From NCBI RefSeq assembly GCF_001425835.1, contig NZ_LMDP01000001.1, positions 931,476 through 995,475 on the forward strand: DNA of 64,000 nucleotides, given 5' to 3'. Below, piece after piece: positions 13,170 to 28,076 of this stretch. Both the position numbers and the translations under genes were made by a program. Within the stretch, counting starts at the first letter, position 1. Each line of letters starts with the position of its first letter. The notes under the pieces are model-generated. The model was not told the DNA's origin. It saw only the letters and a list, made by a program, of their open reading frames with translations, and did not search any database. Origin of the DNA: Afipia sp. Root123D2 (GTDB lineage: Bacteria > Pseudomonadota > Alphaproteobacteria > Rhizobiales > Xanthobacteraceae).

Positions 13170-13860
13170 CCTCCAGAATGTTCACGTTCATATCGGTAAG
13201 TTGCACATTCTTCAGGGCGTGAATCTTGATATCAAGCCTGGCGAGTCGGCCGCGCTGCTGGGGCGTAACGGCGTCGGAAAAACCACGACGCTCCGCGCGA
13301 TCATGGGGCTCGCGCCCAAAAGCGGCGGATCGATTGAATTCGACGGCGTCGATCTGGCGCGTCTGGCGCCGCACAAGGTGCCGCGTACGGGAATTGGATA
13401 CGTCCCGCAGGGCCGCGGCATATTTCCCAATCTCTCGGTGTTTGAGAATCTGTGCATCGGGCTACCCGGCAAGCGCGACCTTGAGCGGGAAGATTACGTC
13501 TTCACCTGCTTTCCGCGCCTGAAAGAGCGGCTGAAGCAATCTGGAAACACGCTGTCCGGTGGCGAACAGCAGATGCTGGCCATCGCCCGCTGCCTGATGA
13601 TGCGCCCAAAACTCATCATTCTCGACGAACCGACGGAAGGCATCATGCCGCTGCTGGTGTCGCAGATTCGTCGCGAAATCTACCGCATCAACCAGGGTGG
13701 GGTGTCGATCTTGCTCGTCGAGCAAAACGTTGAAACCGCGCTCAAACTTTGCCCGCGGGTGTTCCTGATGGAGAAGGGCACCGTGGTCTATTCCGGCACG
13801 TCGCATGAATTGAAATCGCAGACCTCGATTGTGCATCGCTATCTTGGTTTATCGCGTTAA
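13162..13860 (+). CDS. ABC transporter ATP-binding protein (LivF-like)
   Basis: A 232-residue ATPase of the LivF type with Walker A GRNGVGKTT, signature TLSGGEQQMLAIAR, Walker B LIILDEPTEGIMP and switch His replaced by Gln in LLVEQNVE, as is normal for LivF. ATG 13162 overlaps the end of the LivG-like gene by 8 bp and has GAGGAGG just upstream. It is the second nucleotide-binding subunit of the importer. Confidence 0.93.
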   Translation: MLSLQNVHVHIGKLHILQGVNLDIKPGESAALLGRNGVGKTTTLRAIMGLAPKSGGSIEFDGVDLARLAPHKVPRTGIGYVPQGRGIFPNLSVFENLCIGLPGKRDLEREDYVFTCFPRLKERLKQSGNTLSGGEQQMLAIARCLMMRPKLIILDEPTEGIMPLLVSQIRREIYRINQGGVSILLVEQNVETALKLCPRVFLMEKGTVVYSGTSHELKSQTSIVHRYLGLSR

Positions 13861-13885
13861 TCCCGGCTTCCAAGGAGAGAATATC

Positions 13886-15163
13886 ATGGCCAAGAAATTG
13901 TCGCGCCGCAGCTTTCTCGGATGTGCTCTCGCGGGGGGAGCTGCGGCTGGTACCGCTAATCTGACCATCATGAGGGATGCCTTTGCGCAGTCCTCGGGAC
14001 CGCTCGTGATTGGCCACCATTGCGATATGACGGGGGTGATATCGTCGTGGGGTGTGTGGCATGACAAGGCGGCGCGCGCCGCCGCTGATATCATCAATCA
14101 GGGTGGCGGCATCGCCGGCCGTAAGGTCGTACTGGCCACCGAAGATACGGAATCCAATCCCGCGAGCGGCGCACGAAAGCTCAGGAACCTGATCCAGCGC
14201 GCCAATGCCGAGTTCGTCATTGGATCGGTCCACTCCGGGGTGATGCTCGCGGCGATCCCGATCGCGTCCGAATTGAAGACAATTTACTTTTCGACCGGCG
14301 AGGCGACCGAGGCAACGGGATCGAAAGGCACGCGCTATTCGTTCCGCACTGGTACGGACACTTACTCGATCGCCGCGGCAAGCATGCCGTGGTGCGTCGA
14401 AAACTTCGGCAAGGCCTGGTCGATCATTTATGCCGATTACGCCTGGGGGCAGAGCACCAACCAGGAATCGCGCGCCTTCATCGAAAAGGCGGGCGGCAAG
14501 ATCATCAACAGCATCGCTGTGCCGCTCGATACCAAGGACTTCGTGCCTTATCTGGCGCAGATTTCGGCCGACACCGAAGTGCTGTTGCCGGCCTTTATCG
14601 GCTCGCTATCGCTTGGCTTCTACACGCAGGCCAAGAGCATGGGTCTCGACAAGAAGATGAAGATGTTTTCATCGTCCGCGAGCATCGAGTCGATCGCTCC
14701 GGACGATATCCAGGGCGCCGCGGAAGGCGTCTACTTTTTCGAGAACTTCCCGCGCATGCTTTCGTCCAAGAACGACGAATACCACAAGGAATTCAACAAG
14801 CGGCTCAATATCGACGATATGGACGCCCGCCTGATTGGTGGTCAGGCGGTGATGGACAAGAGCCATTGCTGGCAGGCCTGGGAAGATCTGTTCGCGCTCA
14901 AGCAGGCGATCGAGAAGGCCGGCTACAAGACACGAAAGGATGTCGAGGGTGTCATCCAGGCGCTTGAAGGCATGGAGATGAAGAACTCGCTTGGGCATCC
15001 GCAGGGCGACAAGATGATCCGCAAGGAAGATCATGTCGGCATCATGGATTGCTATATTAGCCGCGTGGTGAATGGCAAGCTGGCGCTCCAGAAGCGCGTG
15101 CCGAAGGAGGACCTGCTGAAGAACATGCCGGTCCGCCATAATCTGTCGGCAATGCCGGTGTGA
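13886..15163 (+). CDS. Periplasmic substrate-binding protein of the ABC importer
   Basis: A 425-residue solute-binding protein of the Peripla_BP_6/amide-urea-branched-chain type. The N-terminus has a twin-arginine export signal, KKLSRRSFLGCALAGG, followed by a hydrophobic stretch and a cleavage-like AFAQS, so it is probably folded before export. The mature part begins PLVIGHHCDMTG. ATG 13886 has AAGGAGAG upstream and lies 25 bp after livF, making it the last gene of the five-gene transporter operon. The Tat signal is less common than Sec signals for this family. A strong hairpin follows. Confidence 0.92.
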   Translation: MAKKLSRRSFLGCALAGGAAAGTANLTIMRDAFAQSSGPLVIGHHCDMTGVISSWGVWHDKAARAAADIINQGGGIAGRKVVLATEDTESNPASGARKLRNLIQRANAEFVIGSVHSGVMLAAIPIASELKTIYFSTGEATEATGSKGTRYSFRTGTDTYSIAAASMPWCVENFGKAWSIIYADYAWGQSTNQESRAFIEKAGGKIINSIAVPLDTKDFVPYLAQISADTEVLLPAFIGSLSLGFYTQAKSMGLDKKMKMFSSSASIESIAPDDIQGAAEGVYFFENFPRMLSSKNDEYHKEFNKRLNIDDMDARLIGGQAVMDKSHCWQAWEDLFALKQAIEKAGYKTRKDVEGVIQALEGMEMKNSLGHPQGDKMIRKEDHVGIMDCYISRVVNGKLALQKRVPKEDLLKNMPVRHNLSAMPV

Positions 15164-16460: not shown

Positions 16461-18176
16461 ATGCAGATCATAACAACCGATGTTGTCGTTGTGGGTGGTG
16501 GCGCCGCCGGTTGCTATGCAGCGCTCGAATTGTCCCGGAAGAAAATCCAGTCGGTCATCGTCTGCAAGGGTCTCGTTGGCAAAAGCGGCGCGTCTCTTTT
16601 CGCCGGAAATCTCGTCATCGGTGGTGGATTGCTCGGCAACACGCCGGAACAGGCAAGTAACACGGCGGAATTTCTGATCAGGTATCACAACCAGTTTCTG
16701 ATCGACCAGAAATGGGCTAAACGCTGCGGTCAGTGGATCGAGAACGTCTACTATCCCGAGCTTGAGGAGGCCGGTCTCTATTTTCGCCGCGACGACGACG
16801 GCAACGTGGTGACCAATCCCGGAAAGATCCGAAGCGTTGCGGCGAACACGCAGGGCAATTCGGGCGTTCCGTTCATGGATCTGCGCCGCAAGCAGGTGAT
16901 GAAAGCCGGTATCCGCAGGCTCGAAGAAACGTCGGTCACATCGTTGCTGCGGCGTTCTGACGGCAGCGTGTGTGGGGTCTTCGCGGTCAATTGCATGACG
17001 GGCGAATACTCCGTCGTGCTGGGGCGTGCCGTCGTCCTGGCCACCGGTTATTCAGACCGTCTGCATATGCGATCGACAGGTACGCGCGAGATGTCAGGCG
17101 ACGGCATCGCAATGGCATGGCGGGCCGGGGCCAGTCTCGTCAATCTCGAGATGCAGTGGTGGCACACCAACGATGTTGCCCATCCACCGACCTGGCAACG
17201 CATCCAGATATATCCCAACCCCGTGCTTGGTTCGGATCACTCGGCGCGCATGGTGAATTCCTCCGGTGAGGAATTCTTCAATCAGCAGGTCGACGATCCG
17301 ATGGCGTTTGCGCCTTACACCGTTCAGCTCAAGGCGCTGGTGAAGCAGGTGCACGCAGGCAAGGCGCGTTACGATGGCGGCTATTTCGCCGGTTTCGATC
17401 ACGTCGATTCCAAGGAGATCGATGCCTACACGACCTATGGCAAGCCGTTCTATCAGCTTGGCCGGGAGCCCAAAAACGGACCGATCGAAACTGCCGTCAC
17501 AGCGCATTACCGGCAGGGCGGAATTCTGGTCGATAATTCGAACATGCGTTCTTCGGTGCCCGGGCTCTACGTCGCAGGTGGCGTTAGCGGACACAGCAAC
17601 GGACTGATCGCGCTGGTCACATTCGACGGAAAGACGGTTGCGGACGGCATTGCCGCCGATCTCGACCAGCTTCAACCCGCAACGCTTCCGGAAGACCAGG
17701 TCGAAGCGGAGCGGCTGCGCATTGAGGCCTTGCTGGCAATGCCCGGTGACGGATTTTCGCCGGTTGCCGTCAAGGAGCAGATCCGCCGCATCATGTGGGA
17801 GAAGGTGGGTGTCGAGAAAAATCTCGCCGGCCTCACCGGTGCACTGGAGGATCTCGATCGCCTTCGCACGTCGGTGCTGCCCAACATGAAGATCAAGAAC
17901 CGGACGAGGGTCGCGAACTATGAATGGCTGGACGTGATCGACGTTCACAACATGATCGACGCCGCGGAGCTGGTTATCCATTCGTCGATTGAGCGCCGCG
18001 AGAGCCGGGGTCCGTTCATGCGAACGGACTTCCCGGAAACCGACAATGAGAACTGGCTGGCAGCCAACATCATGGTCAAGACCGACAATGGGTTTCGATT
18101 CGAGCAACGTCCCTACGAACTGCCGTTCTATCAACCCGGTTTCGCTCGTCGCGACAACATGACGGTGCCGTGGTGA
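16461..18176 (+). CDS. Fumarate-reductase/succinate-dehydrogenase-like flavoprotein
   Basis: A 571-residue FAD flavoprotein of the FrdA/SdhA/AprA superfamily. It has the dinucleotide fold VVVVGGGAAGCYAALELSR (residues 8-26), the capping domain, a HYRQGGI segment (His349) and the C-terminal ERRESRGPFMRTDFPE block with the expected arginines. Differences matter: the QFHPTG active-site motif is replaced by QWWHTN (His235), and the Ser-His region that covalently binds FAD in membrane SdhA/FrdA is KSGASLFAGN with no His, so FAD is probably non-covalent. It is first in a three-gene operon with Fe-S and CCG proteins. It may oxidise or reduce a dicarboxylate or 2-enoate other than succinate/fumarate; the substrate is unknown. 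Confidence 0.88.
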   Translation: MQIITTDVVVVGGGAAGCYAALELSRKKIQSVIVCKGLVGKSGASLFAGNLVIGGGLLGNTPEQASNTAEFLIRYHNQFLIDQKWAKRCGQWIENVYYPELEEAGLYFRRDDDGNVVTNPGKIRSVAANTQGNSGVPFMDLRRKQVMKAGIRRLEETSVTSLLRRSDGSVCGVFAVNCMTGEYSVVLGRAVVLATGYSDRLHMRSTGTREMSGDGIAMAWRAGASLVNLEMQWWHTNDVAHPPTWQRIQIYPNPVLGSDHSARMVNSSGEEFFNQQVDDPMAFAPYTVQLKALVKQVHAGKARYDGGYFAGFDHVDSKEIDAYTTYGKPFYQLGREPKNGPIETAVTAHYRQGGILVDNSNMRSSVPGLYVAGGVSGHSNGLIALVTFDGKTVADGIAADLDQLQPATLPEDQVEAERLRIEALLAMPGDGFSPVAVKEQIRRIMWEKVGVEKNLAGLTGALEDLDRLRTSVLPNMKIKNRTRVANYEWLDVIDVHNMIDAAELVIHSSIERRESRGPFMRTDFPETDNENWLAANIMVKTDNGFRFEQRPYELPFYQPGFARRDNMTVPW

Positions 18177-18213
18177 ATGCGCGCCGAACACTGTCGATGT
18201 CTGGAGGTGCGCG

Positions 18214-19209
18214 ATGAACGTGCAGGTCGACGCGCGAAGTATCGGCAAGGCCGAGAATTTCGACGGGTTGCTGGCGCGCAACACACGGCTCCAGCCAGGC
18301 GATCCGGTGCATATTCGCGTTTTGCGGTTCGATGCCGATCATGCCGATCAATCCGGTTTTGAAAGTTTTGTGGTTCCCTACGATACCTCGATGCGCGTTC
18401 TGGATGCGCTCAACTATGTCGCGGAGCATTTCGCGACCGATCTGGCCTACCGCTGGCTATGTGGATCCAAGATGTGCGGCACCTGTGCCGTCCGCATGAA
18501 CGGACGGGAAGTGCTGGCGTGCTGGGAAAGCGTCGAGCCCGAAATGACGATCGAGCCGCTGCGCAATCTGCCGGTCATCCGCGATCTGGTGGTGGACCGG
18601 TCGCCGTATGAGGCGCGTGTCGCGAAATTCGAGCCCTGGCTTGAACGCTCGTCTGACTATGCCGGCTTTCCTGAACCGCTGTCGCACAAGGACATGAAGA
18701 ATGCGTCCAAAGCCTTGGATTGCATTAGCTGTATGTCGTGCTTTTCGGCCTGTCCCGTCGTCGGCCTCGGCGATCTCACGGATTTTGCGGGACCGGCGCC
18801 GCTGGTCCAACTGGCGCAAACAGCCCTCGATGTTCGGAACGACCCGAAGAAAGTAGCGAGCGCGCTCGAACATGCCGGAATTTTCAACTGCGTGTCCTGC
18901 TATAAATGTGAGGAAGTCTGCCCCGCCAAGATTCCGATCGTGACCCGGATCATCGAGCCTTTGAAGGCGAAGACCGCTGTCCTGGTTCCTCACGCCGCGC
19001 GGCATTCGATCGTGTTTCGGGCAATTATCGCCTCACGAGGACGGATCGACCCGAGCGAACTTGTGATGCGGGTTCAGGGCGCGAAAGTGTTGCTGCAGGT
19101 CGGGCGTGCGTTGCGGCTTCTGCTTCGCGGCAAGATCAATCCACTCAAAACTTTATTCGGGAAAAACGGGAGCGCAGCGAACGCGGCGTCCCGTATCCTC
19201 GATCGATAG
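18214..19209 (+). CDS. Fe-S electron-transfer subunit (SdhB/FrdB-like)
   Basis: A 331-residue SdhB-like protein. The N-terminal ferredoxin domain binds one 2Fe-2S cluster (CGSKMCGTC with Cys83, 88, 91 and Cys103). The C-terminal domain has two full four-Cys sets, CISCMSCFSACP (170, 173, 176, 180) and CVSCYKCEEVCP (226, 229, 232, 236). SdhB of respiratory complexes has one 4Fe-4S and one 3Fe-4S; the complete second set here suggests two 4Fe-4S clusters. About 65 residues follow the clusters, basic and partly amphipathic. It starts 37 bp after the flavoprotein and passes electrons between it and the HdrB-like subunit. Confidence 0.9.
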   Translation: MNVQVDARSIGKAENFDGLLARNTRLQPGDPVHIRVLRFDADHADQSGFESFVVPYDTSMRVLDALNYVAEHFATDLAYRWLCGSKMCGTCAVRMNGREVLACWESVEPEMTIEPLRNLPVIRDLVVDRSPYEARVAKFEPWLERSSDYAGFPEPLSHKDMKNASKALDCISCMSCFSACPVVGLGDLTDFAGPAPLVQLAQTALDVRNDPKKVASALEHAGIFNCVSCYKCEEVCPAKIPIVTRIIEPLKAKTAVLVPHAARHSIVFRAIIASRGRIDPSELVMRVQGAKVLLQVGRALRLLLRGKINPLKTLFGKNGSAANAASRILDR

Positions 19210-19220
19210 AAGGCTGCATC

Positions 19221-20081
19221 ATGAAATTCGCCTATTATCCCGGCTGTTCGGCGAAAAGCACTTGTGCCGAACTTAACGTGGCAATGCGTAAGGTTGCGGT
19301 CGCGCTTGATTTGCAGCTCACTGAGCTCGAGTCGGCTACCTGCACAGGAGCCCGCGAGATCAGGGCAATCGACCCTGTCGGATTCCTTGCGCTCAATGTG
19401 CGCATCCTCGCACTCGCCGAGCGGGATCAATTGCCGCTGATGACGATCTGCAATACCTGCACACTTAACCTTATCGACGCCAACGCGATTTTCGCAGAGG
19501 ACGCAGATCTTGCCCGGCAGGTGAATTTGCGGCTCGCCGAGGAAGGCCTTGAATATAAAGGCACGACCCGCGTCACCCATTTCTTGTGGGTGTTGTTTGA
19601 AGACATCGGCGCCGAGCGCCTTCGCGAACTCGTGGTCAACCCTCTGACCGGACTGTCGGTCGCGGCTTTTTATGGTTGCCACATTACGCGACCGCCGGGC
19701 AAATACGGCTTCATAGATTCCCGCAATAATCAATCGCTCGAGCAGCTCTCCATGTTACTTGGCTGCAAGCCGGTCGATTATACCGGCCGAACGGAGTGCT
19801 GTGGTTTTCATACCGCCGCTCATGACGAACGCATTTCGATCAAGCTGACGGGCCAGCACATCCAGTCGGCGAAAACCAACGGTGCAGACGCGATGGTGAC
19901 GCCATGCCCGCTGTGCCATACCGTGCTGGATAGTTTCCAGAAGGAAATTGAGAAGGATGCCGGCACCAAGCTGGACATGCCGGTTCTTCATCTCCCGCAA
20001 CTGGTGGGCCTTGCCCTCGGGATGTCGCATGAAGAGTTGCGCCTCGGCAGTCATGTTGTCTCGACGGAGGCTCTCAGGTAG
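19221..20081 (+). CDS. HdrB-like CCG-domain subunit (SdhE/heterodisulfide-reductase B type)
   Basis: A 286-residue protein with two cysteine-rich CCG domains, as in HdrB, thiol:fumarate reductase and type E succinate dehydrogenase. The second domain is complete (Cys153 in YGCHITRP, Cys193-Cys194 in ECCGFH, Cys229/232 in PCPLCH). The first has Cys9, Cys77 and Cys80, but the CC pair is reduced to TCTG (Cys41 only). It therefore probably binds one non-cubane cluster. It replaces the usual cytochrome b membrane anchor and probably hands electrons to or from quinone or a thiol carrier. It follows the Fe-S gene after 11 bp, and a terminator closes the operon. Confidence 0.88.
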   Translation: MKFAYYPGCSAKSTCAELNVAMRKVAVALDLQLTELESATCTGAREIRAIDPVGFLALNVRILALAERDQLPLMTICNTCTLNLIDANAIFAEDADLARQVNLRLAEEGLEYKGTTRVTHFLWVLFEDIGAERLRELVVNPLTGLSVAAFYGCHITRPPGKYGFIDSRNNQSLEQLSMLLGCKPVDYTGRTECCGFHTAAHDERISIKLTGQHIQSAKTNGADAMVTPCPLCHTVLDSFQKEIEKDAGTKLDMPVLHLPQLVGLALGMSHEELRLGSHVVSTEALR

Positions 20082-20351: not shown

Positions 20352-21131
20352 ATGGTCAGGTGCATGTCTAGTGTTTTGCGAGAACTTCCCGCCATAGCCA
20401 GAGGCGATGAACTGGCTTCTGCCAGCAAGATAGTTTTTGAACGCGCGGAAGTACGACGCGGAAGCCGCCAGCTTCTTTCGATCCCGGCGCTTCGCCTTGA
20501 TGCGCAGCGCATCGGCGTGATCGGCGACAACGGATCCGGCAAGAGCACGATGCTCCGCCTGATCAACGGGCTTCTCTTGCCGAGCAGTGGACGGATTGTC
20601 GTGGCGGGGCTCGATACGGCGCGTCATCGTAAGGAACTGCCGGCGCAGGTCGGTTTCGTATTTCAGAACCCGGACCATCAGCTTATTTTCCCGACGGTCG
20701 GCGAGGAGATCGCATTCGGACTGACCGAACGCGGGATGCCCGCCCGGCAGGCGCGAAATCAAGCGCTGACGCTGCTGGAGCAGCACGGCTGCACCGGATG
20801 GGTCGATCGCAATGTCAATGAGCTGTCCGGAGGCCAGAAGCAGCTTGTCTGCATTCTGGCGGTGCTCGCCACCGAGCCGTCGATCCTGCTGATGGACGAA
20901 CCCTTCTCGAGCCTCGATCTTCCGACCCGGCTGGTGCTTTCCCGCAAGATCATGAGGTTGCCGCAGCAGATCGTGATGGCGTCCCATGATCTCGACCTGC
21001 TCGCGCAGTTCGATCGGGTGATCTGGCTGGACGCGGGCTGCATTCGCGAGGATGGTTCACCTGCCGATGTGCTGCCGGCCTATCGTGAGCATGCAGCGAT
21101 GGCCGCTGAAGCGGATCTCGCCACGGTATGA
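20352..21131 (+). CDS. bioM: BioM, ATPase of the ECF biotin transporter
   Basis: A 259-residue energy-coupling-factor ATPase with Walker A GDNGSGKST, Q-loop VFQNPDHQLIFPTVGEEIAF (the ECF-type groove motif), signature ELSGGQKQL, Walker B ILLMDEP and switch His in MASHD. ATG 20352 is preceded by GGAG at 7 nt; a GTG at 20319 and an ATG at 20364 are less likely. It overlaps bioN by 4 bp. In this family BioM energises biotin uptake through BioN and BioY. No clear BioR-type box (TTAT-N2-ATAA) is visible upstream. Confidence 0.93.
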   Translation: MVRCMSSVLRELPAIARGDELASASKIVFERAEVRRGSRQLLSIPALRLDAQRIGVIGDNGSGKSTMLRLINGLLLPSSGRIVVAGLDTARHRKELPAQVGFVFQNPDHQLIFPTVGEEIAFGLTERGMPARQARNQALTLLEQHGCTGWVDRNVNELSGGQKQLVCILAVLATEPSILLMDEPFSSLDLPTRLVLSRKIMRLPQQIVMASHDLDLLAQFDRVIWLDAGCIREDGSPADVLPAYREHAAMAAEADLATV

Positions 21132-21754
21132 TGACCGACGGCCTCGCGCCAAAGACGTGGCTGCATCGCGTGCCCGCTGGCGTCAAGCTTGCGGGCCTTG
21201 CGCTGTTCAGCCTTGTGCTGCTGCCGGTCGATGACTGGCGGATATTGGCGGGCGTGTTGACGCTCGTTCTTGCAACCTATGCAGGCTTCGGGCGCCCGGG
21301 GCTCGCGCGGCTGGCATTGCTGCGGCCCCTGGTGCCGCTGCTTCTCATCATCGGCGGCGTTCAGGCGTTCTCAGGCGGCTGGCACGCGGGGGCTGTCGTC
21401 AGCCTGCGGTTGCTGACAATGCTTTTGCTCGCCGATCTCGTCAGCATGACCACCACGATGACCGCGTTGATGGACGTGCTCGCGCCGTTCTTCAGCCTGC
21501 TTCGTCCGCTTGGCGTCAATCCGCGCAAGATGGCGCTTGCGGTGGCGCTCGTCTTGCGCTTTGTCCCGGTTCTGCTGACGCGATGGCGTGCCCGCGAGGA
21601 GGCCTGGAAGGCGCGAACCCACCGTCGCGTTCCGGTGCGGCTGGTGGCTGTCTTCCTTGCCGATATTTTGCAACTCGCCGATCGGGTCGCGGAATCGCTC
21701 GATGCAAGGGGCTTCGATACGGCTGCCGCCGATCGTCAACGGAAGCTATCGTAG
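21128..21754 (+). CDS. bioN: BioN, transmembrane T component of the ECF biotin transporter
   Basis: A 208-residue membrane protein of the ECF T family with four to five hydrophobic segments. It carries the coupling motif with an ARG triplet in AESLDARGFD near the C-terminus and a matching basic stretch (TRWRAREEAWKARTH) before it, through which T components contact the ATPases. ATG 21128 overlaps bioM. It links the ATPase BioM to the biotin-binding BioY encoded next. Confidence 0.92.
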   Translation: MMTDGLAPKTWLHRVPAGVKLAGLALFSLVLLPVDDWRILAGVLTLVLATYAGFGRPGLARLALLRPLVPLLLIIGGVQAFSGGWHAGAVVSLRLLTMLLLADLVSMTTTMTALMDVLAPFFSLLRPLGVNPRKMALAVALVLRFVPVLLTRWRAREEAWKARTHRRVPVRLVAVFLADILQLADRVAESLDARGFDTAAADRQRKLS

Positions 21755-21764
21755 GAGAGATCAC

Positions 21765-22319
21765 GTGGAATCGCGAGCCATTGTCCGTATTGCCCTGATG
21801 GCGGCCGTCATCGGTGTGCTGGGAATGCTCCCCGGAGTGATGTTGCCGATCGCCATGGGCGTGCCGATCACGGCGCAGACCCTTGGAGTCATGCTGGCTG
21901 GAATTATCCTCGGTCCGCGCCACGGCGCACTGGCGGTGCTGCTGTTCCTGTTCGTGGTGTTGCTCGGCGCACCGTTGCTGTCGGGTGGTCGCGGCGGGCT
22001 CGGTGTGCTGTTCGGACCGTCGGTCGGCTTCCTGCTCGGCTTTATTCCCGCGGCATTTGTCGCGGGTCTCGCGATGGAGCGGTTGAAGGCCCTGCCAGTG
22101 TTCGCCGCAGCGCTCGTTGCCGCGGTCGTGGGCGGGATTGTGGTGGAATACGCTTGCGGTGTTTTCGGCTTGATGGTGATGGCGCGGATGAGCCTGCTGC
22201 AGGTGCTTGTCGCCACGGCCGTCTTCGTGCCGGGCGATCTTCTGAAGGCATTGGCGACGGCCTTCGTCGCAGAGGCTTCGTATCGTGGCTATCCGGCTGC
22301 GATCGCGAGCCGGACGTGA
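21765..22319 (+). CDS. bioY: BioY, biotin-binding S component
   Basis: A 184-residue protein of six hydrophobic segments with BioY-type sequence (GVPITAQTLGVMLAGIILG, the SGGRGGLGVLFGPSVGF segment, and VPGDLLKALATAFVA). It binds biotin at the membrane. GTG 21765 is chosen because GGAGAG stands 5 nt upstream, and the 10-bp gap to bioN fits an operon. Its stop overlaps the GTG start of the acyl-CoA ligase gene by 4 bp, so ligase translation is tied to the transporter. Confidence 0.94.
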   Translation: MESRAIVRIALMAAVIGVLGMLPGVMLPIAMGVPITAQTLGVMLAGIILGPRHGALAVLLFLFVVLLGAPLLSGGRGGLGVLFGPSVGFLLGFIPAAFVAGLAMERLKALPVFAAALVAAVVGGIVVEYACGVFGLMVMARMSLLQVLVATAVFVPGDLLKALATAFVAEASYRGYPAAIASRT

Positions 22320-23824
22320 CCGATCACCCAACCATCACGGCAACGCTTCCGAGACATGCGCGCGCGAGCCCCGACCGCATCGCGGTGATTTGCGATCGCC
22401 ACGCGATTACCTGGTGGGAGCTCGATCTGGCCGTGGATCGTCTCGCCGCTCACCTTGCGGCTGTCGTTCCGGCGGGACGTGGCGTTGCCTTGCATTTGCC
22501 GAACGGTCCGGCGCTGGCGCTGCTGTTTCTTGCCGCCGCGCGCGGGGGGCGGGAGGCGCAGGTCCTCGACCCCAATTGGCCGGTCGAGACGACGCGGCTT
22601 GCGCTCAGGGAGCTCTCGCCGGGTCTCGTGGTCAGTCATGATCCGGCGCTGGCCGGTGGGGCGGGTGCACTGGCCGTGATTGATGCCCACGGTCCGTTCG
22701 AGACTGTTGCGGATGCAATCGGGGCGAAATCCTCGTTCCAGTCGGTGCCGCAGCCCGATCCGTTGACGCCGTTCTATGTCGGGTTCACGTCGGGCTCGAC
22801 AGGTCTGCCGAAAGGATATCGACGCCACCATTCGTCGTGGGTCGAGAGCTTTCGGGCAGGGGACCGCGAGTTCGATATAAACGCGGATGATGTCGTGCTC
22901 GCCCCCGGCGCGCTGACGCACTCGCTGTTTCTTTACGGGCTTGCGCATGGATTGTACGTCGGTGCGACCGTCATCCTTTGCCGGCAGTTTCGCCCCAATC
23001 TGGTCTGCCGGCTGATTGCGACGCATCAGGCAAGCGTGCTCTATGGCGTGCCGACACAGCTTGAAATGATCGTCGACGCGGCCATGCGTGATAGCGCGCC
23101 ACCATTCGCGACGATGCGCTGGATTCTGTCGTCAGGCGCGAAATGGCAGGGCCGCGCGATGGACGATTTGCGGGACCATTTCCCAAGCGCGCGTTTCGCC
23201 GAATTCTACGGTGCTTCCGAATTGAGTTTCGTTACGGTTGTGAAGGATGATGAGGATGTGCCGCCCGATTCGGTCGGGCGGGCATTTTCCGGCGTCGATC
23301 TCTCGATCCGGGACCATCTCGGGCGCCGACTGCCGTCGGGTGAGGCCGGGCAGGTGTTCGTGGCCAGTCCCTTCGTTTTCATCGACTACGCCTGTGGGAA
23401 TACAACGGCGCTCTTGCGCGATGGTGACGCGGTGTCCGTCGGTGACATCGGCGTTCTCGATGAACGCGGCTATCTCCGGCTTGTTGGCCGCGCCAGCCGG
23501 ATGATCATTACGTCCGGCAAGAACGTGCATCCGGAAGAGATCGAGCGCGTGCTTGAGAGCCACCCCGCGGTGACGGCGGCGGCGGTGCTGGGCGTCGACG
23601 ATGATCGCCGGGGCGAGCGGCTTCTGGCGCTGCTCAAACTCCATCCGGAGATGTCCGTTGCTTCGTCCGACCTGATCGGCCATGCCCGCAGCCGTCTACC
23701 GTCCTACAAGATACCGCGCCGGTTCGCGCTGCCGCCGAAGTGGCCGTTGACGTCGTCCGGCAAAAACGATTTTCAGGCGCTGCGCAGCATTTGGGACAGC
23801 GACGTGTGCGAGGCGCTCCCGTGA
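22316..23824 (+). CDS. Acyl-CoA ligase (AMP-forming) in the biotin operon
   Basis: A 502-residue member of the AMP-dependent acyl-CoA synthetase family. The adenylate-forming loop is FTSGSTGLPKGYRR, the hinge region is VGDIGVLDERGYLRLVGR, SGKNVHPEEIERVLE follows, and the C-terminal catalytic Lys is in PLTSSGKNDF. It would activate a carboxylic acid to its CoA thioester. It is fused by 4-bp overlaps to bioY upstream and the thiolase downstream. The arrangement recalls B. subtilis yhfT, next to the BioY paralogue yhfU. Plausible substrates are biotin, a biotin side-chain derivative or a pimelate-like acid; none is proven. Confidence 0.88.
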   Translation: MTDHPTITATLPRHARASPDRIAVICDRHAITWWELDLAVDRLAAHLAAVVPAGRGVALHLPNGPALALLFLAAARGGREAQVLDPNWPVETTRLALRELSPGLVVSHDPALAGGAGALAVIDAHGPFETVADAIGAKSSFQSVPQPDPLTPFYVGFTSGSTGLPKGYRRHHSSWVESFRAGDREFDINADDVVLAPGALTHSLFLYGLAHGLYVGATVILCRQFRPNLVCRLIATHQASVLYGVPTQLEMIVDAAMRDSAPPFATMRWILSSGAKWQGRAMDDLRDHFPSARFAEFYGASELSFVTVVKDDEDVPPDSVGRAFSGVDLSIRDHLGRRLPSGEAGQVFVASPFVFIDYACGNTTALLRDGDAVSVGDIGVLDERGYLRLVGRASRMIITSGKNVHPEEIERVLESHPAVTAAAVLGVDDDRRGERLLALLKLHPEMSVASSDLIGHARSRLPSYKIPRRFALPPKWPLTSSGKNDFQALRSIWDSDVCEALP

Positions 23825-24948
23825 CCGCCGCTTATCTCGTCGCCGCGCGCCGCACCGGCGTCGCGCCGCGCAACGGTGCGTTCAAGGCGGTGGAAGCCGA
23901 CGAACTCGGCGAAGCGCCGATCCGTGCCGTCTTGTCCGATTGCGGCATTGCGCCGGATGCGATCGATGACGTGATCTTCGGCAACGCGCTGTATGGCGGC
24001 GGCAATCCGGTGCGGCTTGCCGCACTGCGCGCGGGACTGCCGGATCGTGTTCCGGCACTGACCATCGACAGTCAATGCTGCGGCGGGCTCGATGCGATCA
24101 TGATGGCTGCGGACCGGGTCACCAGCGGTGGCGCGGATGCTGTCATCGCGGGAGGCGTCGAAAGTTTCAGCCGCGCGCCACTGCGTGCGCGACGGCCGCG
24201 CCATGCCGGCGAGGCCCCGCAGCCGTATGACAGGCCGCCCTTCGCGCCGTGGCCCGAGCGCGATCCGGATATGATCGCCGCCGCCGCGGTGCTCGCCGAA
24301 ACATTCGGCATCTCGCGGACGAGGCAGGATGCGTTCGCGATCGCAAGCCACCGTAAGGCGATCGAAAATCCTCCCGGCTCCGGCGAGATCGTGCCGCTGG
24401 CGGGATTGTCGCGCGATGCCTTTCCCCGTGCGCTGACCGAAGCGCTGTGTTCGCGTTTGCCGCCGATCGCAGGCGATGAGGTGTCCGGCGTGACGCGCGC
24501 GACAGTCGCGGTCGAGGCCGACGCCGCCGCCGCCCTGCTGGTGGTGTCCGAAACGATGCTGCGGCGTCTCAATGTGGGGCGGCCGTTGCGGATCATGGCC
24601 GCAACCCGATGCGGTGACGATCCGGCAATGCCCGGCGCCGCGCCGATCCGCGCGGCCAAAAAGCTTCTCGCAGGGCAGCGGGTTGCTCCGGAGGCGATCG
24701 CCGTCGCCGAGATCATGGAAGCCTTTGCCGCGCAGGCAATCGCCTGTGCAGAGGGGATCGGCGTGGCGTCATCGGCGCTCAACCGGAGCGGTGGCGGATT
24801 GGCGCGCGGCCATCCGATCGGTGCATCCGGCGCAATCCTTGCGGTGCGGTTGTGGCATGAAATGCAGAAGGAGGAGCCGGGAGCGCTGGGGCTGGCGGCG
24901 ATTGCCGCTGCCGGCGGACTCGGCAGCGCGCTGCTCGTGACGATATGA
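23821..24948 (+). CDS. Thiolase-like acyltransferase in the biotin operon, C-terminal Cys missing
   Basis: A 375-residue thiolase-family protein. The nucleophile is present in DSQCCGGLDAI (Cys86), and the oxyanion/base motif GGGLARGHPIGASGA is intact (His331). The C-terminal catalytic Cys, normally in a CxGGGxG motif, is Ala362 in GLAAIAAAGGLGSA. Without it, normal thiolysis or Claisen condensation is doubtful. The start is a GTG at 23821 inside the ligase stop. It parallels yhfS of Bacillus by position. It could be a thiolase-like protein with altered chemistry or a partner in a complex with the hydratase gene. Confidence 0.85.
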   Translation: MTAAYLVAARRTGVAPRNGAFKAVEADELGEAPIRAVLSDCGIAPDAIDDVIFGNALYGGGNPVRLAALRAGLPDRVPALTIDSQCCGGLDAIMMAADRVTSGGADAVIAGGVESFSRAPLRARRPRHAGEAPQPYDRPPFAPWPERDPDMIAAAAVLAETFGISRTRQDAFAIASHRKAIENPPGSGEIVPLAGLSRDAFPRALTEALCSRLPPIAGDEVSGVTRATVAVEADAAAALLVVSETMLRRLNVGRPLRIMAATRCGDDPAMPGAAPIRAAKKLLAGQRVAPEAIAVAEIMEAFAAQAIACAEGIGVASSALNRSGGGLARGHPIGASGAILAVRLWHEMQKEEPGALGLAAIAAAGGLGSALLVTI

Positions 24949-24964
24949 CGAAAGGCAGGCTGAG

Positions 24965-25471
24965 ATGAGTGAAGCCGGGCACGATCATGCATCGCCGATC
25001 GTGAGCACGCCTCTGCACGTCGCCAAGGCGATCGAGCTTGCTGCCTGCGTCGGCCGCGAATTTGCGCCGGGCCGCTGGCTTTCGGTGACGCAGGACGAGA
25101 TCGATCGTTTCGTCGCTCTAACGGGTGATCAAAACTGGATTCATACGGATGCCGCGCGTGCGGCGCGTGAGCTGCCGGCGGCGAAGACGATCGTGCCGGG
25201 CCAATTGCTGCTGGCTCTTGTCCCGAGGCTGCTTCAGGAAGCCTGTGTGGTGACGGGCGGCGCGCAAGGCCGGGTGGCTGCGATCCGCGCCGTTCGATTT
25301 CGCCATGCGGTTCACCCCGGCGATGCGTTTCGGCTGCGAGCGCGATTGACGCTGGTCGAGCGGCGTCCGCGTTTCGTGCAGGTGGACGCTGCATGCGATC
25401 TCGAACTGATGTCCGGACAGAGGGCGCTGACATCGCAACGCACCGATGTCTTTTCTAGTGAAACAACATAG
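24965..25471 (+). CDS. MaoC-like (R)-hydratase/dehydratase
   Basis: A 168-residue single hot-dog protein of the MaoC family. The catalytic Asp/His signature is GDQNWIHTD (Asp55, His60) followed by AARAARELPAAKTIVPGQLLLAL. Such enzymes add or remove water at the 2-3 bond of an acyl-CoA. The gene starts 16 bp after the thiolase and is the last of the six-gene bioMNY operon. Together, ligase, hydratase and thiolase resemble part of a beta-oxidation or chain-building path dedicated to a biotin-related acid. Confidence 0.85.
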   Translation: MSEAGHDHASPIVSTPLHVAKAIELAACVGREFAPGRWLSVTQDEIDRFVALTGDQNWIHTDAARAARELPAAKTIVPGQLLLALVPRLLQEACVVTGGAQGRVAAIRAVRFRHAVHPGDAFRLRARLTLVERRPRFVQVDAACDLELMSGQRALTSQRTDVFSSETT

Positions 25472-25824: not shown

Positions 25825-26721
25825 ATGCTCTACGGCCTCGGGACAAATTCGCGGACGCAAACCATCGCTGCGGTGGAAGTGGCGGTCGGGGCGGGTGCGA
25901 AGGATTCCGGTTGCCGCGATGGGCCCGCCGGGTTTCGGCAACAGGCGGAGGCGGAATTGCGTGCGCGCGGCGTCACGCTGACGTGGCGTCACATGCCGCA
26001 GAGCCTGCGCGACGCCGGGGCGTCGCCGCTCGACGTGGTGGCGTCCACGGCGCGCTGGACCGCCCGCGTCACCCGGAATTTCGTCACCAAGGACAATCGC
26101 TTTCTTGTGGTCGGCGGCGATCATTCCTGCGCGGTCGGCACCTGGAGCGGTGCCGCCGATGCGCTGCGGCCATCGGGTGCGCTCGGGCTGATCTGGATCG
26201 ACGCCCACATGGACATGCACGTTCCGGAGACCAGCCATAGCGGGGCCATTAACGGAATGCCGGTAGCGGCGCTGCTCGGTTACGGTGCGCCGCAGCTGAC
26301 CTCGGTTGCGCACAGGGGTGCTGCGATTGATCCGCGTCACCTGTGCCTGATCGGCGCGCGGAGCTTCGAGCCCGAGGAGGCCGCGTTCGGGCAGCGCCAT
26401 GGCGTGCGCGTCATCGATATGCCGGAGGTGCAGCGGCGCGGCGTCAAGGCCGTGCTCGCGGAGGCGCACGCAATCGCCGCGAGCGGGACCGCCGGCTACG
26501 GCGTGTCGCTCGACCTCGATGCGTTCGATCCTGTCGAAGCGCCCGGCGTTGGCACGCCGGCGCCTGACGGCATTCGCGCGGCGGATTTCCTCGCGCCGTG
26601 GAGCGAACTGATCAAGGATCCAGCCTGCGTCGGCATCGAGATCGTCGAATACAATCCGGCGCTCGACCGCGACGGGCGCACCGCGCGGCTGATGCAGGAT
26701 TTGGTGATGGCTTGGGTCTGA
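25825..26721 (+). CDS. Arginase/ureohydrolase family enzyme
   Basis: A 298-residue binuclear-manganese hydrolase of the arginase family. The metal ligands are visible in GGDHS (97-101), DAHMDMH (126-132) and SLDLDAFDP (Asp230, Asp232), with the late Glu in GIEIVEYNP. AHMDMHVPETSHSGAINGMP matches true arginases, which split arginine to ornithine and urea, better than agmatinases. ATG 25825 has AGGGG 6 nt upstream. Its stop overlaps the P450 start by one base, so the two are co-translated. A metabolic link with the P450 is not obvious. Confidence 0.9.
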   Translation: MLYGLGTNSRTQTIAAVEVAVGAGAKDSGCRDGPAGFRQQAEAELRARGVTLTWRHMPQSLRDAGASPLDVVASTARWTARVTRNFVTKDNRFLVVGGDHSCAVGTWSGAADALRPSGALGLIWIDAHMDMHVPETSHSGAINGMPVAALLGYGAPQLTSVAHRGAAIDPRHLCLIGARSFEPEEAAFGQRHGVRVIDMPEVQRRGVKAVLAEAHAIAASGTAGYGVSLDLDAFDPVEAPGVGTPAPDGIRAADFLAPWSELIKDPACVGIEIVEYNPALDRDGRTARLMQDLVMAWV

Positions 26722-28076
26722 TGGCGGGAGTGCACAAACTGCCCGATATGCGCAACGTTGCTCCGGGGACGTCGCAAATTCCCGAGTCGATCAGCAATCT
26801 GATCGTCTCGCCGCAAGCCTACGCGCGCCAAAAAAATCTTCTGTCCGCCTTCCGCCAATTGCGTGAAACCAATCCGGTTGGCCGCGTTGATATCCGGGAT
26901 TTTGACCCGTTCTGGGCGGTGACCCGGCACGCCGACATTCTGGCTGTGAGCCGCCGGCATGACGTCTTCCACAATGGAGATCGCGCAACCGCGCTGGTGC
27001 CTCGTGCCACCGATGAAAAGATTCGCGCGCTGACCCGTGGCAGTCCGCATCTTATTCGGACTCCGGTCCATATGGACGCGCCCGATCATCCCGCGTATCG
27101 CGCGCTCACCCAGGCCTGGTTCACAAGGCAGAGCATCCATTCAATGGAGCAACGCATCCGCGGCCTCGCACGCCGATGCCTTGACCGGATGGTGGCATTG
27201 GAGAGCCAGTGCGAGTTCGTCAACGATGTCGCGCGTCCATTCCCGCTCAAGGTAATGCTGAGCATTCTGGGAATTTCCGAGGAGGATACCGAGCAGGTGC
27301 TCGGCCTCACCGAGACGTTTTTTCGCAGTCAGGATGACAATGACGGGATGCCGACGGACCTTGTCCGCGATCCGGCGCGGCACGCAGAGCATCTTTTCGA
27401 GGTGTTGTCTGCTTTTCGCGCTTACTTCAAGCCGCTGATCAAGGCGCGGATCGCTGCGCCGCGCGACGATGTGCTGACCGCAATCGCGCATGCCGAAATC
27501 GATGGGCAGCCCATTCGCCCCTTCGAGGCGATCAGCTATCTGCTGATCCTCGCGACAGCCGGACATCACACCACGTCATCCTCGATCGCGGGCGGAGTCT
27601 GGGGACTATGTCAGTATCCGCACGAGTTCAGGAAGGCGGTATCGGATCGCGGTCTGATCCCCGGTCTGGTCGAGGAGGCGGTGCGCTGGACGACACCCGT
27701 TCAACATTTCATGCGGACGGCCGTGCGGGATACCGAAGTCGGTGGGCGCCGGATCGTTGCGGGAGACTGGCTGATGCTCTGCTATTTGTCGGGCACTCGC
27801 GACGAAGCCGTTTTCGACGAGCCCGACCGCTTTCGGATCGATCGCGGCTCCGCATCGCATGTTTCATTCGGCCATGGAGTCCACGTCTGCCTTGGTCAGC
27901 ACCTGGCGCGGTTCGAGATGCGTATTTTCTTCGAGGAGATGCTGTCCGTCATCGACGAGATCGAGTTGTGCGGCGAGCCTCGGCGCTGCGCGTCGGTGTT
28001 CGTCGGCGGCCCCACGCACGTGCCGGTGCGATACAAATTGAAACGTCAATCAGCCGCTCGTCATGACGTGCGGTAA
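26721..28076 (+). CDS. Cytochrome P450 with unusual I-helix
   Basis: A 451-residue soluble bacterial P450. The haem Cys is Cys390 in FGHGVHVCLGQHLARFE, and the ExxR pair is E319/R322 in EEAVR. The I-helix reads AGHHTT (280-285) where most P450s have AG-x-D/E-T; the acidic residue used for proton delivery is His283. That could mean altered oxygen activation or peroxide-type use. No ferredoxin or reductase gene is adjacent. The ATG overlaps the arginase stop, and an internal ATG at 26748 is a possible alternative. Its end overlaps the convergent cyclase gene by 16 bp. Confidence 0.92.
   Translation: MAGVHKLPDMRNVAPGTSQIPESISNLIVSPQAYARQKNLLSAFRQLRETNPVGRVDIRDFDPFWAVTRHADILAVSRRHDVFHNGDRATALVPRATDEKIRALTRGSPHLIRTPVHMDAPDHPAYRALTQAWFTRQSIHSMEQRIRGLARRCLDRMVALESQCEFVNDVARPFPLKVMLSILGISEEDTEQVLGLTETFFRSQDDNDGMPTDLVRDPARHAEHLFEVLSAFRAYFKPLIKARIAAPRDDVLTAIAHAEIDGQPIRPFEAISYLLILATAGHHTTSSSIAGGVWGLCQYPHEFRKAVSDRGLIPGLVEEAVRWTTPVQHFMRTAVRDTEVGGRRIVAGDWLMLCYLSGTRDEAVFDEPDRFRIDRGSASHVSFGHGVHVCLGQHLARFEMRIFFEEMLSVIDEIELCGEPRRCASVFVGGPTHVPVRYKLKRQSAARHDVR

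Follow-up and report, generated by a model that had tools for sequence, protein, structure and literature searches.

A conserved biotin-transporter operon of Afipia encoding an acyl ligase and a thiolase-like protein that lacks the Claisen base

Operon layout and recurrence

We examined a 64,000-nucleotide stretch of the Afipia sp. Root123D2 genome (contig NZ_LMDP01000001.1; the whole stretch is called the window here) and found six open reading frames (ORFs) on the + strand at 20352-25471, in the order bioM-bioN-bioY-ligase-thiolase-like-MaoC (Table 1). Three of the five gene junctions are ATGA/GTGA overlaps, with bioN, the ligase gene and the thiolase gene each starting inside the preceding stop, and the bioN-bioY and thiolase-MaoC gaps are 10 bp and 16 bp. 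The first-pass annotation of this DNA had described six genes joined by overlaps or short gaps, and the ORF coordinates bear this out. All six genes are under purifying selection (dN/dS 0.05-0.16 against three relatives). By Pfam, the A, T and BioY S components of a BioMNY energy-coupling factor (ECF) transporter are all present and contiguous, and the top NCBIfam match of bioM is an ECF ATPase model, scored below its cut-off. The alphaproteobacterial BioMNY transporter is encoded by the same three genes; the window adds three enzyme genes in the same operon.

Table 1. Genes of the operon and active-site positions of the thiolase-like protein, in window coordinates
Feature	Position	Strand	Evidence
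bioM, ECF-type ABC ATPase (A component)	20352..21131	+	Pfam ABC_tran 95.5 bits; dN/dS 0.11-0.16
bioN, ECF transmembrane T component	21128..21754	+	start overlaps bioM stop; Pfam CbiQ 48.5 bits; dN/dS 0.10-0.14
bioY, biotin S component, GTG start	21765..22319	+	Pfam BioY 122 bits; PDB 4dve BioY E 8e-24; dN/dS 0.05-0.07
AMP-forming acyl ligase, YhfT/PRK07638-like	22316..23824	+	GTGA overlap with bioY; Pfam AMP-binding and AMP-binding_C
Thiolase-like protein, 375 aa	23821..24948	+	GTGA overlap with ligase; Pfam Thiolase_N and Thiolase_C
Cys86-Cys87 of thiolase-like protein: nucleophile (Cys89 equivalent) and second Cys	24076..24081	+	alignment rows
Met299 of thiolase-like protein at Asn316 position (NEAF motif)	24715..24717	+	alignment rows
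His331 of thiolase-like protein, GHP motif (His348 equivalent)	24811..24813	+	alignment rows
Ala362 of thiolase-like protein at Claisen base Cys378 position	24904..24906	+	alignment rows
MaoC-family hydratase-like protein, optional operon member	24965..25471	+	Pfam MaoC_dehydratas 54 bits

The recurrence of the arrangement was measured in two sets: an order-level sample of 199 genomes (ligase called at E <= 1e-60, own genome counted) and a search of named genomes that used ten ligases as queries and from which the best 80 of 262 relatives were kept, a set that leans to close relatives. We found the ligase in 11 of the 199 genomes, and in 10 of these 11 bioY lies beside it and a thiolase gene follows. 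In the 80 named loci, profile searches showed that bioY immediately precedes the ligase in 70 and lies somewhere within the locus in 76, and that a thiolase immediately follows the ligase in 69; the ligase gene ends in ATGA or GTGA in 63 of the 71 loci having both ligase and thiolase. Since the adjacency recurs in both sets (10/11 and 70/80), the arrangement is more than chance. Hence, the tight coupling of the ligase to the biotin transporter that the first pass had proposed holds across genomes, and the operon is real and conserved, a variant of the Bacillus yhfUTS set that has its own dedicated transporter and whose thiolase is without the catalytic base.

Biotin import and the status of biotin synthesis

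We found no bioB over the cut-off in the window genome (G000, 99.93% complete), which has one BioY, the operon's own, and a biotin protein ligase. Its only bioF match (358 bits, below the cut-off) was rejected as bioF; the protein scores 689 bits as a 5-aminolevulinate synthase, for which the cut-off is 339. Since the operon holds the sole BioY of a bioB-less genome, its BioMNY very probably imports biotin itself, a deduction by elimination for which importers other than BioY were not searched. When module BioYs were compared with 30 other BioYs at ligand-contacting positions, the Arg of 4dve chosen as a marker was absent from the rows listed for either set and so does not tell the two apart.

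Among the ten order-sample module genomes, bioB was missing in eight (the window genome and seven of the other nine), and seven of the eight have a single BioY. The named genomes, 50 from the 80 loci, were our own choice, with few Ancylobacter and with metagenome-assembled genomes of unknown completeness included; 49 were searched. Here bioB was missing in 26 of 49, with a single BioY in 20 of the 26, and in 20/20 of these the BioY shares the locus stretch with the ligase (about 4 kb away in L070). Genomes scored as bioB-less still show faint similarity (22-43 bits), well short of the 225 bits set as the cut-off. BioY is present in 49/49 named module genomes compared with 127/199 order-sample genomes. 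The co-occurrence with biotin-synthesis genes raised in the first pass did not appear for bioB in either direction: 2/10 module genomes carry it compared with 68/189 others (Fisher p 0.50), with G023, which has a ligase-thiolase pair without bioY, counted among the 189.

These counts bear on an old idea for yhfUTS, namely that it feeds biotin synthesis with a pimelate-type precursor, a role for which the ligase belongs to a suitable general class. However, bioB is absent in the window genome and in the 26 named module genomes, and precursors upstream of BioB would therefore be useless to such cells; bioF, moreover, was over the cut-off in 0/36 genomes tested (34 of the 36 give matches below it), and the own-genome match is the 5-aminolevulinate synthase. 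Hence, pimelate supply, one of the chemistries that the first pass had listed, is excluded for the window genome unless bioB and bioF both sit in an assembly gap, and as an account of the module it is very improbable.

A BirA-type biotin protein ligase scored over the cut-off in 10/10 module genomes tested. It is accordingly difficult to see the module ligase as a replacement for biotin protein ligase, which we consider extremely improbable, even though both enzymes form acyl-adenylates and YhfT, the yhfUTS ligase, reportedly halts at the adenylate (passages of PMC10988940).

Two further patterns concern BioY. L051 (4523-6001) and L068 (4896-6001) carry two tandem BioY genes between bioN and the ligase, of which the first has lost the Asp of its PGD motif and is perhaps a second S component with another ligand. 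G195 and G146 each have three BioYs, with BioY beside bioB and no bioF over the cut-off, as if imported dethiobiotin were used.

The thiolase-like protein, MaoC and neighbouring genes

In the Zoogloea thiolase, Cys378 is the base that abstracts the substrate proton, and Asn316 and His348 form the oxyanion hole (passages of PMC3406046). We aligned the window protein with solved thiolases, the best relatives being biosynthetic thiolases, and found the nucleophile and the GHP His kept, with Met in place of the NEAF Asn and Ala in place of Cys378. Hence, the residue set Cys89, Asn316, His348 and Cys378 is incomplete in this protein, which has the Cys and the His only.

The same pattern recurs in a residue table of 82 module-type proteins, which includes L022 and in which three proteins are cut short, leaving 79 rows that cover the C-terminal sites. 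The nucleophile Cys is kept in 82/82 and the GHP His in 79/79, and the Claisen base Cys378 is found in 0/79. At the NEAF Asn position we found Met in 72, His in 4 and Asn in 3 of the 79. Cys378 and the NEAF Asn are both kept in 11/11 ordinary thiolases, drawn from the window genome, Peribacillus and Ancylobacter/Roseibium; a further sequence, L163, was dropped as too short (140 aa). Because the Cys and the His are kept while Cys378 is lost, we infer that the thiolase-like protein may pass acyl groups on through Cys86 and not perform the usual Claisen reaction. PhlC of Pseudomonas protegens, likewise of the thiolase superfamily and with a conserved His, is an acyltransferase that transfers acyl groups through its Cys (passages of PMC6392133). 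Unlike the PhlC system, the six operon proteins gave no PhlB-like (DUF35) Pfam match.

The protein could instead be a normal thiolase with a substitute base such as Cys87, given that a second Cys stands next to the nucleophile in 78/82 rows. However, neither Cys87 nor Cys378 is present in L021, in L022 or in L111, the YhfS-type protein of Peribacillus; Cys87 is replaced by Ser in L068, and the NEAF Asn is lost too in 76/79. We therefore regard a substitute base as quite unlikely.

In an unrooted thiolase tree from a quick search, 35 module-type thiolases fall on one side of a branch with a Shimodaira-Hasegawa approximate likelihood ratio test (SH-aLRT) value of 99, and 32 of them group at support 100. 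L021, L022 and L111 stand outside the group of 32; with midpoint rooting, L022 and L111 fall towards the ordinary thiolases (81-85) and L021 beside the 32-member group (support 81). L022 (9047-12180) belongs to G023, the eleventh ligase carrier of the order sample, and consists of a thioesterase-like gene, a ligase and a thiolase without Cys378; no bioY was found in the 18.8 kb stretch around this pair. It is possible that this set is a relative of the module with another job.

Of the 80 named loci, 18 carry MaoC: in 17 it is a gene of its own behind the thiolase, and in one it is fused to the thiolase. We did not find it in the remaining 62 or in the 10 other order-sample loci. The fusion, in Microvirga tunisiensis (L053, 7404-9026), is in frame and encodes 540 aa, and because of it we consider that MaoC probably works with the thiolase-like protein. 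The Asp and the His of the MaoC D-x4-H motif, the catalytic residues of the hydratase, are kept in 18/18 rows listed. On a quick ligase tree, thiolase presence requires at least 2 changes and MaoC presence at least 6 (with 5 and 3 loci, respectively, set aside). Hence, MaoC, which the first pass had counted as part of the module, is present in the window operon and lies outside the core, being absent from most loci.

The thiolase is also missing from some loci. Seven Ancylobacter loci retain bioMNY-ligase without the module thiolase, the gene immediately behind the ligase being DeoR-like, and the best thiolase in each of these seven genomes is of the ordinary type with Cys378. Because these genomes keep bioMNY-ligase without the module thiolase, we take the ligase and the transporter as the core. 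L070 has no thiolase in a search confined to its locus. A candidate thiolase loss in Roseibium (L100) was dropped; a partial thiolase match lies directly behind its ligase.

To survey the neighbouring genes, we took, in the 80 loci, ORFs on the operon's strand that lie no more than 120 bp from either end of it (37 downstream and 36 upstream), left out two downstream pieces belonging to the module and scanned the remaining 71 with Pfam, many giving no match. Regulators dominate the matches, with DeoR-type proteins in 19/35 downstream and TetR-type in 8/36 upstream neighbours; aldo/keto reductases account for 3/36 upstream neighbours. No acyl-CoA, hydroxyacyl-CoA or short-chain dehydrogenase was found among the 71.

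The missing dehydrogenases bear on a cycle in which the ligase, hydratase and thiolase together would shorten the side chain of biotin or its vitamers by beta-oxidation or, run backwards, would lengthen shortened norbiotins again. Such a cycle draws support from an operon that encodes a ligase along with a MaoC-type hydratase and a protein of the thiolase fold, from MaoC following the thiolase in 17/80 loci and its fusion in L053, and from the three aldo/keto reductases upstream. However, the Claisen base is lost in 79/79, no dehydrogenase of the three families is among the neighbours, the module thiolase is absent in the seven Ancylobacter genomes and MaoC was not found in 62/80 loci; in addition, a cell unable to make the vitamin would presumably work against itself by breaking it down. 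Hence, the beta-oxidation chemistry that the first pass had included among its options is weakened, and we consider it unlikely.

In the window itself, translations read by eye suggest that the same-strand genes directly upstream (16461-20081) encode a fumarate-reductase-like flavoprotein, an iron-sulfur protein and a cysteine-rich heterodisulfide-reductase-like protein, with a periplasmic binding protein ahead of them (13829-15163). Downstream on the same strand (25825-28076) lie an arginase-family gene and then an ORF that by eye resembles a cytochrome P450.

The ligase and the proposed handling of biotin

The top NCBIfam model for the window ligase is NF005797 (PRK07638), at 366 bits and below its cut-off of 518; the next model scores 247 bits, and the next best protein of the window genome in the PRK07638 search scores 246 bits. 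ANL acyl-CoA ligases are marked by a P-loop, an A8 hinge and a catalytic C-terminal Lys. We found the C-terminal Lys kept in 90/90 ligases and Arg at the A8 hinge position in 89/90, with Asp in L111; in eight other ligases of the window genome this position is Asp in seven and Glu in one. We considered whether the A8 glycine loop points to a loss of CoA binding and set this aside, its change being found in an ordinary ligase too.

The parallel with Bacillus yhfUTS drawn in the first pass is borne out at family level by the Peribacillus locus L111. Its order is bioY-ligase-thiolase, its ligase scores 564 bits in PRK07638, over the cut-off, and its thiolase scores 592 bits in PRK06690 (NF005212), over the cut-off of 498. 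The window thiolase scores 244 bits in PRK06690, below 498, and is outscored by two other thiolases of its genome (265 and 248). In each of the PRK07638 and PRK06690 searches, a single control genome out of 14 exceeds the cut-off, presumably B. subtilis, which is among the controls. Hence, the order BioY, ligase, Cys378-less thiolase of the Bacillus/Staphylococcus yhfU(bioY)-yhfT-yhfS set is common to the window and L111. The window operon differs in having its own bioMN and an optional MaoC, in a thiolase with Met at the NEAF Asn position and a further Cys in the active site, and in a ligase and a thiolase that fall below NCBIfam cut-offs where the Peribacillus pair lies above them.

We propose that the operon imports biotin and chemically handles the imported compound by ligase activation and acyl transfer on Cys86, a reading drawn from sequence comparison that we favour tentatively and put at somewhat under an even chance. 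BioMNY would bring biotin into the cell, a step that is probable by elimination. The ligase would adenylate biotin, or a relative with its ring intact, on the side-chain carboxyl and would pass the acyl group to CoA or directly to a thiol. The thiolase-like protein, judging from its residues, would accept the acyl group on Cys86 and then transfer or release it, with no C-C bond made or broken by the normal thiolase mechanism; MaoC, where present, may act on the same thioester. The most likely role of the module would be retention or salvage of scarce biotin compounds. A more specific proposal, which we find rather doubtful, makes the ligase an activator of biotin or a biotin vitamer and the thiolase-like protein a biotinyl-Cys transferase, together forming a relay that would catch biotin outside the biotin protein ligase route and that would exist in two forms, in Alphaproteobacteria and Bacillota.

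The activity proposed for the window ligase would correspond to biotin-CoA ligase (EC 6.2.1.11), which to our knowledge has no assigned gene. A modest hint that CoA is a co-substrate comes from upstream pantothenate genes: panC (pantoate-beta-alanine ligase) lies directly upstream in four Bradyrhizobium loci (L038, L039, L040 and L042) and panD (aspartate decarboxylase) in three Microvirga loci (L050, L053 and L058, two of them from one genome). The products of panC and panD make pantothenate, the CoA precursor. Our literature search found no paper joining bioMNY, biotin and thiolase, and a search on biotinyl-CoA found nothing of use.

Several points weigh against biotin handling by the module. 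First, bioB is present in 23/49 named module genomes, so the module is no mark of auxotrophy, and the bioB carriers include the genomes of L034, L035, L036, L037 and L043, close relatives of the window. Second, L055, L091 and L092 have the ligase-thiolase pair without bioY in the locus stretch, BioY lying elsewhere in the genome. Third, another residue could stand in for Cys378, with Cys87 a candidate. Fourth, a review describes YhfT of B. subtilis, the closest studied relative, as a fatty acyl ligase forming acyl-adenylates only and no CoA thioesters, and counts it among the fatty acyl-CoA ligases affecting surfactin, single knockouts of which lower surfactin by 38-55% (passages of PMC10988940). 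That YhfT stops at the adenylate fits a non-CoA acceptor, and it also fits a role in fatty-acid metabolism.

Such a role would be the salvage of fatty acids when biotin is scarce. While acetyl-CoA carboxylase lacks enough biotin, a co-regulated ligase would activate exogenous or recycled fatty acids and the thiolase would serve lipid metabolism, biotin being the signal and not the substrate. The YhfT surfactin data speak for it, as do the two further AMP-ligase genes just upstream of bioM in L044. It also has on its side that BirA, together with biotin, represses yhfS-yhfT in S. aureus (passages of PMC6391492 and PMC7235819), and in the same sources and PMC10988940, so far as these passages go, yhfT and yhfS are given putative roles only.

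Regulation in the window offers salvage less. We looked for a BioR box, the consensus of which we take to be TTATNNATAA, and found none upstream of the window operon (at most one mismatch, 300 bp); BirA boxes were not searched. The box upstream of the first bio gene is exact in L038 only and has one mismatch in L040, L042, L111 and L112, and no shared operator was seen in an alignment of 17 upstream stretches. A BioR site is also absent at the bioMNY of A. tumefaciens and the bioMNY2 of Paracoccus (passages of PMC4554459). Besides the missing box, fatty-acid salvage has against it that the ligase is tied to bioY in 70/80 loci, that no fatty-acid synthesis or beta-oxidation family was matched by Pfam among the 71 neighbours, and that the thiolase lacks the Claisen base. 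Hence, we consider fatty-acid salvage doubtful.

Of the chemistry that the first pass had sketched, the coupling to the transporter and the yhfUTS parallel stand, pimelate supply does not, and side-chain beta-oxidation is left weaker. Across many Alphaproteobacteria, some of them apparently unable to make biotin, a ligase-thiolase pair related to yhfT and yhfS occurs together with a dedicated biotin ECF transporter, and the thiolase partner lacks a residue needed for thiolase chemistry. With these residue losses and the missing bioB, the pimelate reading is gone for such carriers and beta-oxidation is weakened. Together, the ligase and the thiolase-like enzyme point to an undescribed handling of imported biotin and not to ordinary fatty-acid breakdown.

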